A DNA stretch of 64,000 bases from Caldilineales bacterium (GTDB taxonomy: Bacteria; Chloroflexota; Anaerolineae; J102), in assembly GCA_019695115.1 (NCBI GenBank), contig JAIBAP010000025.1, positions 1 through 64,000 on the forward strand, in the 5' to 3' direction. Of this stretch, positions 58,733-63,958 are shown piece by piece. Numbering within the stretch: the stretch's first letter is position 1; each line of letters opens with the position of its first letter. The notes under the pieces were generated by a model, which did not search any database, was not told the DNA's origin, and was given only the letters and a program-made list of their open reading frames with translations. Both the position numbers and the translations under genes were made by a program.

Positions 58733-59155
58733 ATGGCAACAATCAGCACCTACTACAAGGGCGATATGCTGTTCGAGAGCAAACTCGGCGCCCATACGCT
58801 TGTCATCGATGTGCCGGCCAGCATGGGCGGCAAGGACCGTGGCCCCACCCCGCCGGAGATCTTCGTTGCGTCTCTCGGCTCGTGCGTCGGCGCCTTTGTC
58901 GCCCAGTACTGCGGCCGTAGCGGCATCGATGCTACCGACATGACCGTCGATGTGACCTTCGACAAGGTGGAGAACCCCACGCGCCTGGTCAATCTCAAAG
59001 TGCATGTCGATCTGCCGCATGGGCGGTGCGCCGATCGCCAGGCGGCGATCCGGCGTGTTGCCGAACACTGCCCCGTGCACGAGACGATCCTCACCTTACA
59101 GGGAATCGAGATCGACATCGTTGGCGAAGAGCAGCACGCCGCCCGTCCCGCCTAG
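58733..59155 (+). CDS. OsmC/Ohr-family protein
   Basis: A 140-residue protein. The two redox cysteines are C51 in LGSCVGAF and C113 in HCPVHETI. OsmC and Ohr proteins reduce organic hydroperoxides using thiols. A cytoplasmic dimer is expected. No ribosome site of strong type precedes the ATG. Confidence 0.9.
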   Translation: MATISTYYKGDMLFESKLGAHTLVIDVPASMGGKDRGPTPPEIFVASLGSCVGAFVAQYCGRSGIDATDMTVDVTFDKVENPTRLVNLKVHVDLPHGRCADRQAAIRRVAEHCPVHETILTLQGIEIDIVGEEQHAARPA

Positions 59156-59390: not shown

Positions 59391-60608
59391 ATGATGAAGC
59401 ACGCACCACCGAGCCACGCTGCGCTGCTCGCCGCCTTCAGATCAGGGGGGAAGGCGGCAATGGCATGGGCTGTCGCCCTTCGCTCTTTGCTCATCCTGCC
59501 CTTCGCTTCCCTCTTCCTGGCGGCGCTGTCGTTGCTCATGGTTAGCGGCGTGGCCGTTGCCGCGCCCGCCGCCCAGGCGGGGGCCGACGCCAATGCCGTC
59601 TGCCAGGCCTGCCACGGCGTGCCCGGACGCGAGATGGAACTGCTCGGCGGCGAGACCATGTCGGTCTTTGTCGATGGCGATACCTACGCCCATTCGGTGC
59701 ACGGCCGCAAAGACATCACCTGCACCGCCTGCCACACCAACATCAGCGGCTTTCCGCACCCGCCGCAGATGGCCCGCGACCGCCGCGACTACCAGCTCCA
59801 GAACTACGCCGCTTGCCGCAACTGCCACCCCGAAGTCTACGACAAAACGCTCGACTCGATGCACACGCGAGCGCTGGCCAGCGGCAACCGCAACGCCGCC
59901 GTCTGCACCGACTGCCACGGCGCCCATGATGTCACCCCGCCCGACCTGCCGCGCGCCAAGATCTCAGAGACGTGCAGCCGTTGCCACAGCGCCATCTTCG
60001 AGCAGTACAAGGCCAGCGTGCACGGCGCCGCCCTGCTAGAAGAAAGCAACCCCGATGTGCCCACCTGCATCGATTGTCACGGCACGCACACCATCGATGA
60101 CCCCACCACCGCCCAATTCCGGCTGCAGTCGCCGGAAATCTGCGGCAAATGCCATCGCGACCGGGCGCTGATGGCGCGCTACGACATCTCGACCGATGTC
60201 TTCAACACCTATGTCGCCGATTTTCACGGCACCACCGTCACCCTCTTCGAGCGCCAGCACCCCGACCAGGCCACCAACAAGGCCGTGTGCTACGACTGCC
60301 ACGGCATCCACAACATCAAGGCCGTCACCGACCCCGAGGCCACCGTCGTCAAGGAAAACCTGCTCGTCACCTGCCAGAAATGCCACCCCGACGCCGCCGC
60401 CAACTTCCCGGCCTCGTGGACGAGCCATTTCATCCCCGACCGCGAGCACAACCCCCTCGTGTATTATGTCAATCTGTTTTATCTGATCTTCATCCCCGCC
60501 ACCCTCGGTTTCATGGTCGCATTCGTCTCGCTCGACGCCCTCCACCGCCTCGCCAGCCGCATCCGGCGTCGTTTCCGCCCCTCTACCCCGGAGACCGGCC
60601 ATGACTGA
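59391..60608 (+). CDS. nine-haem membrane-anchored cytochrome c
   Basis: A 405-residue protein. A signal anchor (about 28-58) precedes nine CxxCH sites at C71, C111, C142, C172, C195, C226, C251, C300 and C328. One further helix (about 360-382) follows near the C-terminus, so the haem domain lies outside the membrane and is held to it. The layout resembles NapC/Cbc-type periplasmic multihaem partners. Its 3' end overlaps the b-type cytochrome gene by 8 bp, implying tight coupling. Confidence 0.9.
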   Translation: MMKHAPPSHAALLAAFRSGGKAAMAWAVALRSLLILPFASLFLAALSLLMVSGVAVAAPAAQAGADANAVCQACHGVPGREMELLGGETMSVFVDGDTYAHSVHGRKDITCTACHTNISGFPHPPQMARDRRDYQLQNYAACRNCHPEVYDKTLDSMHTRALASGNRNAAVCTDCHGAHDVTPPDLPRAKISETCSRCHSAIFEQYKASVHGAALLEESNPDVPTCIDCHGTHTIDDPTTAQFRLQSPEICGKCHRDRALMARYDISTDVFNTYVADFHGTTVTLFERQHPDQATNKAVCYDCHGIHNIKAVTDPEATVVKENLLVTCQKCHPDAAANFPASWTSHFIPDREHNPLVYYVNLFYLIFIPATLGFMVAFVSLDALHRLASRIRRRFRPSTPETGHD

Positions 60609-61950
60609 ACACGTCCAGGGCGGCTCCTACACTCGCTTCAGCCGCAGCGACCGCATCGAGCACCTGATCTTCATCACCGCCTTCACGGTCTTGGTGATCA
60701 CCGGTCTGCCCCAAAAATTCTTGCCGGCGGCGTGGGCCGACTTGCTCATCCGGCTGCTGGGCGGGATCGAAATCGTGCGCATCATCCACCGCCTCGCCGC
60801 CGTGGTGATGATCGTCGAAAGTGTTTTCCACATCCTGGCCGTCGCCTACAAGATGTTCGTGCGGCGGTCGGGGCTGCCCATGCTGCCGGGGTTGCAGGAT
60901 GTCATCGACTTCTTCGTGGCCGTGCGCTACAACCTGGGCCTGAGCAAGAAACGTCCCTACTACGACCGCTACAGTTTCGAGGAAAAACTCGAATACTGGG
61001 CCGTCATCTGGGGCACGGTGGTCATGGTCGTGACCGGCTTCATGCTCTGGAACCCGATCACCACCACCCTGCTGCTGCCCGGCAGCTTCGTACCCGCGGC
61101 CAAGGCCGCCCACGGCGGCGAGGCCCTGCTCGCCTTCCTGGCTATCGTCGTTTGGCACCTCTACAACGTCCATATCAAGACCTTCAACAAAAGCATTTTC
61201 AATGGCAGGCTGACCGCCGAACAGATGGAGCACGAGCATCCGAAGGAGAAAGATCGCATCGACGCCGGCCTGGTGCGGCCACTGCCCCCACCGGCGGTGA
61301 TCAGGCGGCGCAACCGTGTCTTCTTCCCCATCGCCGGGATGATCGTCGCTGTGTTCGTGGTGGTCATGTACTTCTTCCTCACCTACGAGCAGACGGCCAT
61401 CGCCACCGTCCCGCCGCAGGAGGCCCCGGTGGAGGTCTTCGTCCCTGCCTCACCCACGCCACCGCCGGCTGACGCCGCCGACCAGGCAGCGGCGTTGGAT
61501 CGGAGTCGGGCCGCCGCCATCCCCCACGAAATCGTCGGGCGCGAAAACTGCCTTTCGTGCCACGGCCTGGGCGCCATCGCTCCTTTCTCGGCCCTGCACG
61601 ATGAACTGCAACTAGGCAACGACACCTGTCTGACCTGCCACCAACCCTCGCCCAACGCCGTCGGCCTGCCCTCGGTCGAGCCGGCGCCGAGTTTCTCGGC
61701 CGACATCCTGCCCGTGCTCCGCAGCCGCTGCGTCGTCTGTCATGGAGCCACCGCCGACCTGAACCTGAGCAGCTATAGCGGCGTCATTCGTGGCACGGCC
61801 GGAGGCCCGATCCTCCAACCCCGCAACCCCGACCACAGTCGCCTGCTCAAGCTCAACGACCTGTCTGATTCCGAACATCCCACCCGCTTGACGACCGAGG
61901 AGCTGGCCCTCGTGCGCGCCTGGATCGAAGCCGGGGCGCCGAACAACTGA
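60601..61950 (+). CDS. b-type cytochrome fused to a three-haem cytochrome c domain
   Basis: A 449-residue membrane protein. The N-terminal half (about 20-195) has four helices of the formate dehydrogenase gamma / Ni-hydrogenase b type, with likely b-haem histidines H21, H63, H186 and H191. A fifth helix (about 240-262) leads to a soluble domain with c-haem sites C317-C320-H321, C343-C346-H347 and C377-C380-H381. The last belongs to a PSCyt1-like module (DILPVLRSRCVVCHG). It would take electrons from quinol and hand them to its c-haems and the neighbouring multihaem proteins. Confidence 0.9.
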   Translation: MTEHVQGGSYTRFSRSDRIEHLIFITAFTVLVITGLPQKFLPAAWADLLIRLLGGIEIVRIIHRLAAVVMIVESVFHILAVAYKMFVRRSGLPMLPGLQDVIDFFVAVRYNLGLSKKRPYYDRYSFEEKLEYWAVIWGTVVMVVTGFMLWNPITTTLLLPGSFVPAAKAAHGGEALLAFLAIVVWHLYNVHIKTFNKSIFNGRLTAEQMEHEHPKEKDRIDAGLVRPLPPPAVIRRRNRVFFPIAGMIVAVFVVVMYFFLTYEQTAIATVPPQEAPVEVFVPASPTPPPADAADQAAALDRSRAAAIPHEIVGRENCLSCHGLGAIAPFSALHDELQLGNDTCLTCHQPSPNAVGLPSVEPAPSFSADILPVLRSRCVVCHGATADLNLSSYSGVIRGTAGGPILQPRNPDHSRLLKLNDLSDSEHPTRLTTEELALVRAWIEAGAPNN

Positions 61951-62069
61951 GGCGCCGCCTCCTTCGCTCTATCCCGACGAACTCTATCCGCACCGGGCTT
62001 CCACCCGGACGGCAGACCCCTCTCGATCACTCCGTTCCGACGGTCGGCAATCCCGGCAGGAGTCCGAAC

Positions 62070-63671
62070 ATGATCCGCAGATTTCGCACCTGGCTACGCA
62101 CACACTGGCGACTGGCTTTGACCGCGGCCTTCATCCTGGCCGCGGCGGGGACCGCCATTTTCGTGGTTGGCGTCACCGTCTGGGAATACACCAACAGCAC
62201 GCCCTTTTGCGGCGAAACCTGCCACACCATGCCGCCAGAGTACGTTGCCTATCAAAAATCGCCGCACGCCCGCGTCTCGTGTGTGGACTGTCACCTGGGC
62301 CAGGACTCTGTTCTCGAAGCCATACCGCGCAAGGCCAAAGAGGTCAGGCACGTGGTCTATGCCCTGACCCAAGACTACGAGATCCCGATCTACGTCCGCA
62401 GCCTGCGCCCGGCCCGCGAGACTTGCGAGAAGTGTCATAGCCCCGAAAAATCGTCGCTCGACAGCGTCAAGAAGATCGAACGCTATCAGACTGACGCCGA
62501 AAACACACCGGTCAGGACCTACTTGACGCTGAAAACGGGCGGAGGGGTCGATCGCGCGGGGCAGGGCCGGGGCATCCACTGGCACATCACCAGCCAGGTC
62601 TATTATCTGGCCAATGACGAACTGAAACAGGATATCGCCTACGTCAAAGAAGTGAAGCTAGATGGTTCGACGGTGGAATATTTCGATCTCGAGAGCAAGA
62701 TCACGCCGGCAGAGGTGGCCGACCGTAGCGCCGAACTGCGGCGTATGGACTGTATCGATTGCCACAACCGGGTCTCACACAAGTTCGATGCCCCCACCGA
62801 CGCCATCGACGACGCCATCAGCAGCGGTCTGATCGATGGCTCGCTGCCCGAGATCAAAGCCAGGGCCACCGAGGCGCTGTCGGTGCACAATGTGAGCCGC
62901 GAGCAAGCCATGGTGCAGATCGACAACCTGCCGACTTGGTACCAGAGCAACTACCCCGCCGTCTTTGCCGAAAAGGAAGCGCAGATCCGGCAGAGTGTAG
63001 AGGCTCTGCGAACGATTTTCGACGGCATCTACTTCCCCGATATGAAGGTCGGGTGGGACACGCACCCCGACAACATCGGCCACAAGGACTTCCCCGGCTG
63101 TTTTCGCTGTCACGACGGCAAACACACCAGCCCTGCCGGCGAAACCATCCGCCTGGAGTGCAACGTCTGCCACACGATCCCGCGCCTCTCTGGCCCTGGC
63201 CTGCCATCTGCCACCATCAACCTGGAACCCAGCAACGAGCCTGATTCCCACCGCGATAGCAACTGGCTGGCCCGCCACCGCGACGAATTCGACGCCACCT
63301 GCGCCGGTTGCCACAGCACCTTCAACCGCGGCGGCTCGGACAACACCTCGTTCTGCGCCAATGGCGCCTGCCACGGCGTCGAGTGGAAGTTCGCCGGCCT
63401 GGATGCGCCGGGCCTCAAAGCCATCCTCCCCCCGATCACCGAAGCCACCGACATCCCGGTGCAGGAAGCCGGTCAAGGCGAAGGCTCCGGTTTCGTGCCC
63501 TACATCCCCCACCCGCTGAGCGAAGAACGCATCGGCCAGTGTCGCACCTGCCACGGGCCAGAGGGCATCAAGCCGATGCCGCAATGGCACGAAGATGAGC
63601 AGTTCCCGCTCGAAGCCTGCACCGACTGCCACCAACTGGCGCCGGGCCTGCGGCCAACGCCGGCGCCCTGA
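62070..63671 (+). CDS. ten-haem cytochrome c with NapC/NrfH-like start
   Basis: A 533-residue protein. One membrane anchor (about 14-36) precedes the haem sites. Eight are CxxCH, at C71, C119, C228, C344, C364, C411, C491 and C517. The first is C47-x3-C51-H52 and the ninth by position, at C429, is C-x4-CH (CANGACH). The first two sites together recall the NapC/NrfH quinol oxidases. The large insert (about 125-225) is haem-free. A GGAGT ribosome site precedes the start. It is probably the quinol-facing or terminal subunit of the cluster. Confidence 0.88.
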   Translation: MIRRFRTWLRTHWRLALTAAFILAAAGTAIFVVGVTVWEYTNSTPFCGETCHTMPPEYVAYQKSPHARVSCVDCHLGQDSVLEAIPRKAKEVRHVVYALTQDYEIPIYVRSLRPARETCEKCHSPEKSSLDSVKKIERYQTDAENTPVRTYLTLKTGGGVDRAGQGRGIHWHITSQVYYLANDELKQDIAYVKEVKLDGSTVEYFDLESKITPAEVADRSAELRRMDCIDCHNRVSHKFDAPTDAIDDAISSGLIDGSLPEIKARATEALSVHNVSREQAMVQIDNLPTWYQSNYPAVFAEKEAQIRQSVEALRTIFDGIYFPDMKVGWDTHPDNIGHKDFPGCFRCHDGKHTSPAGETIRLECNVCHTIPRLSGPGLPSATINLEPSNEPDSHRDSNWLARHRDEFDATCAGCHSTFNRGGSDNTSFCANGACHGVEWKFAGLDAPGLKAILPPITEATDIPVQEAGQGEGSGFVPYIPHPLSEERIGQCRTCHGPEGIKPMPQWHEDEQFPLEACTDCHQLAPGLRPTPAP

Positions 63672-63700
63672 AGACCCCACCACACACCACGGAGTCAGCC

Positions 63701-63958
63701 ATGAGTTGCACCCACCTTGATCAAATAACCGTTCACAACGTCACCCCCGGCGCCCACGGCTGCGAGGACTGCCTGAAAATCGGCGGGCGCTGGGTTCATC
63801 TGCGCATCTGCCTCAGTTGCGGGCATATCGGTTGCTGTGATAACTCGCCCAATCGTCACGCCACCAAGCATTTCCAGGCCACCGGCCACCCCATCATCCA
63901 GTCCTACCAACCGGGCGAGGACTGGCAATGGTGTTTTGTCGATAAGGAACTGCTCTAA
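63701..63958 (+). CDS. UBP-type zinc-finger protein
   Basis: An 85-residue protein. The zinc ligands are in GCEDCLKIGG, CLSCGHIGCCDN and RHATKHFQATGHP, matching the zf-UBP fold. Stand-alone bacterial members often sit near metabolic or redox genes; their role is not defined. It follows the ten-haem gene by 29 bp and is probably co-transcribed. Confidence 0.87.
   Translation: MSCTHLDQITVHNVTPGAHGCEDCLKIGGRWVHLRICLSCGHIGCCDNSPNRHATKHFQATGHPIIQSYQPGEDWQWCFVDKELL

Follow-up and report, generated by a model that had tools for sequence, protein, structure and literature searches.

Three adjacent genes in the genome of a Caldilineales bacterium (Chloroflexota), designated g1, g2 and g3, probably make up a module that works as a quinol:cytochrome c oxidoreductase and exports electrons to extracellular cytochromes. 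They lie within a 64,000-nt stretch of contig JAIBAP010000025.1 (positions 1 to 64,000, hereafter the window). Comparison of the predicted proteins supports the view that g1 and g2 represent a two-gene CbcL type, while g3 encodes a predicted quinol dehydrogenase resembling ImcH. In Geobacter, CbcL and ImcH oxidise quinol at the inner membrane as part of extracellular respiration (PMC6295460, PMC9129911, PMC12307469).

All genes of the region discussed here are on the forward strand. The first, g1 (59391–60608, 405 aa), encodes a nonahaem c-type cytochrome with nine CX2CH motifs and two hydrophobic segments, one near the N-terminus (residues 33–51, a signal or anchor) and one forming a C-terminal helix (362–380). 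It is followed by g2 (60601–61950, 449 aa), a dihaem b-type membrane cytochrome of the FdnI/HydC type in which the b domain (residues 9–221) and a last helix (240–258) precede a C-terminal extension with three CX2CH motifs. The third gene, g3 (62070–63671, 533 aa), encodes a decahaem protein with one N-terminal helix, eight CX2CH motifs, a CX3CH motif (CGETCH) as its first haem site and a CX4CH motif (CANGACH) as its eighth. The 9, 3 and 10 c-haem sites that a first-pass annotation had ascribed to three adjacent membrane genes are confirmed by these motifs; same-composition shuffles contained on average 0.04 (g1), 0.002 (g2) and 0.04 (g3) CX2CH motifs and never more than two. The tight spacing it had reported also holds, with g1 and g2 overlapping by 8 nt, g2 and g3 separated by 119 nt, and g3 ending 29 nt before the next gene. 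Pfam and NCBIfam models identify g1 as a multihaem cytochrome, g2 as b561/FdnI type with a PSCyt1-like last haem, and the N-terminus of g3 as NapC/NirT–NrfH. Cytochrome c assembly proteins are encoded in this genome.

We judge the module to consist of these three genes. The earlier reading had it ending with the downstream UBP zinc-finger gene (63701–63958, 85 aa, PF02148), but none of the relatives' loci showed a zf-UBP match close to the module (E 0.01), and this gene was rejected as a component. The upstream OsmC-like gene (58733–59155, PF02566) was likewise set aside, as it is not kept beside the module in relatives' loci.

A catalytic redox subunit is absent from the window and from the remainder of the contig (64,000–71,346), which carries AzlC/AzlD-, MurJ-, cytidylyltransferase-, shikimate-pathway- and AroE-like ORFs (named from ORF translations). 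The initial observation that the module lacks such a subunit extends to its relatives, where no terminal reductase or dehydrogenase catalytic subunit adjoins the module. Instead it is flanked in these genomes by larger multihaem cytochromes, by CcmF, by an octahaem/4Fe–4S/NrfD operon (in relatives of the same class) or by Rieske/cytochrome b genes (in the same genus), with a complex I gene nearby in one relative (L039). At six loci (L040, L041, L042, L046, L047 and L049) an octahaem gene and, after it, two size-matched genes lie beside the module on the opposite strand; for L040 and L049, Pfam matches verify that these two are 4Fe–4S and NrfD genes.

We compared the window's proteins with CbcL- and ImcH-type proteins from G. 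argillaceus, Geobacter sp. OR-1, Geomonas sp. Red32, Oryzomonas japonica, Geomesophilobacter sediminis and Anaeromyxobacter soli. These fit the published descriptions of the two families; CbcL and ImcH of G. sulfurreducens themselves were compared by description only. Among the searched genomes, fused nine-c-haem proteins of 617–655 aa with up to six predicted helices occur in Geobacter, Geomonas and Oryzomonas, and match the published description of CbcL (PMC6295460, PMC9129911). The two window proteins are collinear with such fused proteins from end to end, in keeping with the original guess of a split CbcL: residues 48–392 of g1 align with residues 10–316 of a fused protein, and residues 9–221 of g2 with its residues 343–569. 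The g1 protein is the counterpart of the periplasmic half of CbcL plus its first membrane helix, and g2 that of the membrane half, with the trihaem extension as an addition. All nine haem motifs of g1 are in one-to-one register with those of the fused proteins. Their histidines are conserved in every protein compared (16/16 from the same phylum and 6/6 of the fused type), as are seven further g1 histidines.

The b domain of g2 matches E. coli FdnI (1kqf_C, E 1.6e-5), and its conserved His21, His63, His171 and His186 align with His18, His57, His155 and His169 of FdnI, the b-haem ligands of that protein. This agreement bears out the assignment of g2 to the FdnI/HydC kind made from the sequence at the outset. 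In the CbcL/MtoC/MtrH family six transmembrane helices follow the c domain; here a hydropathy scan picked out a single helix closing g1, then three hydrophobic stretches within the g2 b domain and the last helix, while a fourth g2 region (~165–195) fell below the hydropathy threshold, yet aligns with FdnI.

Like CbcL, MtoC and MtrH, the pair has one helix followed by a dihaem b domain of FdnI/HydC type and then a last helix, the parts standing in an identical order, and it lacks a catalytic subunit; with CbcL it also shares nine c-haem motifs in matching places. It differs from all three in being encoded by two overlapping genes rather than one. It is further set apart by the trihaem tail of g2 (which in some relatives has a single haem or lacks haem altogether), by an identity of only ~25–31% to the fused type, and by its separate branch in a tree of b domains. 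In this tree, which is unrooted and has long branches, the Geobacteraceae fused proteins form a long branch of their own (support 100/100), and the proteins of the window's phylum, every one of them split, fall elsewhere, as does a split protein from Anaeromyxobacter soli that lies with them. The c and b domains are encoded by separate genes in the window and all phylum relatives examined, and are fused in all Geobacteraceae loci examined. Anaeromyxobacter soli, outside the window's phylum, carries both a split g1/g2-type pair (L176, 41–43% identity) and, at a second locus (L177), a fused form with seven haems.

The resemblance of the g3 N-terminus to NapC/NrfH was also borne out, with matches to NrfH (2j7a, E 2e-9) and the NapC/NirT Pfam family, and can now be sharpened to ImcH. 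The comparisons led to the CbcL type for g1–g2 and to ImcH for g3, whose ImcH-like matches in five genomes of Geobacteraceae type are 40–42% identical to it over the core. Seven haems of g3 are collinear with those of the ImcH-like proteins, namely the CX3CH first haem, a motif typical of ImcH (PMC6295460), and the six that follow. Like ImcH, g3 combines a NapC/NirT-like start and a CX3CH motif followed by CX2CH motifs with a conserved CHxM motif and lysine: Met54 of CHxM is invariant (26/26), and the position of Lys88, aligned with NrfH Lys82, is lysine in 24 of 26 proteins. Full-length g3 relatives within the phylum retain the CX4CH site. Unlike ImcH, g3 has one helix rather than three, carries three extra C-terminal haems and shares an operon with a CbcL-type pair. 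ImcH itself is needed when extracellular respiration runs at higher potential. Single-helix ImcH homologues are already known from Anaerolinea thermophila and also from Intrasporangium (PMC6295460). In two same-family relatives (L191 and L192) we observed a second, paralogous family of g3-like 10-haem proteins (~36–40% identity), located near other multihaem genes and a protein of 1,013–1,023 aa with five haem motifs. An ImcH-like gene adjoins a fused CbcL-like gene in Oryzomonas japonica (L180), and the pairing of ImcH with CbcL is therefore not limited to the window's phylum.

Across the phylum, g1 and g2 stand side by side. A g2 match (cut-off E 1e-10) was found in 33 of 301 sampled phylum genomes, in some cases to the haem tail only. 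Wherever the b domain was matched and enough sequence was available, a g1 homologue lay directly upstream of g2 on the same strand (26/26 loci), and the two are also adjacent in seven loci of the window's own family, the window included. The overlap between them is often 1–8 nt. A g3 gene follows g1–g2 in about a third of the 26 loci; since it is missing from this position in many phylum members, the two predicted quinol entry points are separable.

Large multihaem cytochromes recur next to the module in relatives. Within the window's family, a gene for a 28- to 34-haem protein lies immediately upstream of g1 in seven genomes, and the four with sufficient upstream sequence share the order 22-haem, 28/34-haem, g1, g2, g3. 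Elsewhere in the class, other families often have before g1 a gene for a 10-haem protein (700–750 aa), mostly with a lipobox-like signal (read by eye). In the present genome OsmC precedes g1, and the 22- and 34-haem genes are found on another contig (C52), where 10-haem (764 aa), 22-haem (601 aa) and 34-haem (1257 aa) genes stand in tandem (L007, 3798–11930). The latter two are homologous to the genes that immediately precede g1 in relatives, and the 22-haem protein has a lipobox-like LAGC signal (read by eye). A further contig of this genome (C26) holds a truncated second g1 copy near its start (L006, 427–1086), covering residues 62–184 at 89% identity (86% at the DNA level) and continuing into different sequence; it is either a duplicate in decay or an artefact of assembly.

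Taken together, these comparisons suggest how the module may work. The g1 and g2 proteins would form a two-subunit CbcL-type enzyme in which quinol is oxidised at the dihaem b domain of g2, electrons crossing its two b-haems before they reach g1 and its nine c-haems at the outer face of the membrane. The g3 protein would provide an ImcH-like second entry point for quinol oxidation, with its own haem chain. From the haem parts of g1, g2 and g3, electrons would probably pass to the secreted or lipid-anchored 22-, 28–34- and 10-haem cytochromes, which are conserved beside the module in relatives and are the likely next carriers. These large cytochromes could then conduct electrons across the wall to an external acceptor, e.g. 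a metal oxide, humics or a partner cell. The first-pass annotation had proposed that the module itself hands electrons to such an acceptor, but its pairing in relatives with 22-, 28- to 34- and 10-haem secreted cytochromes suggests that it is probably not the terminal reductase. A route through an MtrB/PioB-type outer-membrane porin was rejected for lack of a PF11854 match, which covers the MtrB/PioB family only, in this genome. The sequences themselves establish the genes and their conserved order, the haem motifs, the collinear homology to CbcL- and ImcH-type proteins and the retention of b-haem and quinol-site residues; quinol oxidation as the direction of flow, the acceptor, assembly of a single complex and any simultaneous use of both entry points are inferences. 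A more ambitious and distinctly tentative picture is that of a porin-free wire, in which split CbcL and ImcH entry points at different potentials sit in one complex wired directly to wall-spanning 22- and 34-haem cytochromes, giving ~78 c-haems per operon.

The direction of electron flow cannot be read from sequence, because MtoC, which belongs with CbcL, is believed to work the opposite way in Fe(II) oxidisers and to supply electrons to quinone (PMC6295460). On such a reading, electrons given up outside by Fe(II), a cathode or a partner cell would enter through the large cytochromes and reduce quinone at g2 or g3. MtoC and MtrH occur in Fe(II)-oxidation clusters, the two directions being indistinguishable by sequence features (PMC6295460), and the current-producing Chloroflexi isolate Ardenticatena maritima gives both anodic and cathodic current (PMC5808234). 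Nevertheless, ImcH-type proteins have so far been tied to quinol oxidation only (PMC6295460), and we regard reverse flow as unlikely.

Somewhat less probable still is that the module acts as a periplasmic hub whose electrons go to soluble terminal reductases with genes elsewhere in the genome, and not to an external acceptor. CymA-type proteins supply several reductases, two NrfD-family genes are present elsewhere in the genome, and g3 shares with NrfH, NapC and CymA not only the N-terminal matches given above but also the N-terminal helix, the first haems, the CHxM motif and the quinol-site lysine. However, NrfH, NapC and CymA have four or five haems and usually a soluble reductase partner, and what relatives keep as partners of the module are not reductases but giant cytochromes that are secreted. 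A partnership with NrfA was rejected, as no PF02335 match was found in this genome. That the three genes are merely a chance run of cytochrome genes with separate functions is very improbable. Although g3 is not always beside g1–g2, and in one same-family relative (L186) adjoins a 34-haem gene in a stretch from which g1–g2 are absent, order, strand and overlaps are kept across many genera, as is the pairing of g1 with g2 described above. Export of electrons through g1, g2 and g3 to extracellular cytochromes remains our preferred reading.

Other systems resemble the module in part. CbcBA of Geobacter sulfurreducens has separate b and c subunits, the latter with fewer haems than here. Compared by description, it too lacks a catalytic subunit and is a cytoplasmic-membrane oxidoreductase linking quinones with cytochromes of the periplasm (PMC10553843). 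Mco of ANME archaea, also compared by description, consists of a VhtC-type cytochrome b gene followed by a gene for a 7–11 haem cytochrome, and is accompanied by giant multihaem cytochromes (MHCs) with no outer-membrane porin route (PMC9012536); unlike our module, it is archaeal, methanophenazine-linked and without an ImcH-like part. A survey of quinol oxidases recorded zero CbcL and one ImcH homologue in Chloroflexi (PMC6295460), and a study of Anaerolineales genomes describes large MHCs and no porin complexes, its searched text making no mention of quinol or CbcL (PMC7399161). Our literature search, which took in few subscription-journal papers and no bioRxiv preprints or supplements, turned up neither a two-gene CbcL type nor this operon. 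The parts are of known kinds; the presence of ImcH and a two-gene CbcL type together in a single operon appears, as far as that literature goes, to be undescribed. Searches based on fused proteins would miss or under-score the two-gene type.

The operon combines two Geobacter-type electron-export systems, one of them divided between two genes. If our interpretation is correct, it would be a natural example of CbcL- and ImcH-type entry points within one operon, and adjacent g1–g2 genes, with or without g3, would be a genomic marker for electron exporters in this group of bacteria. The module would then represent the missing inner-membrane step of electron export in the group.
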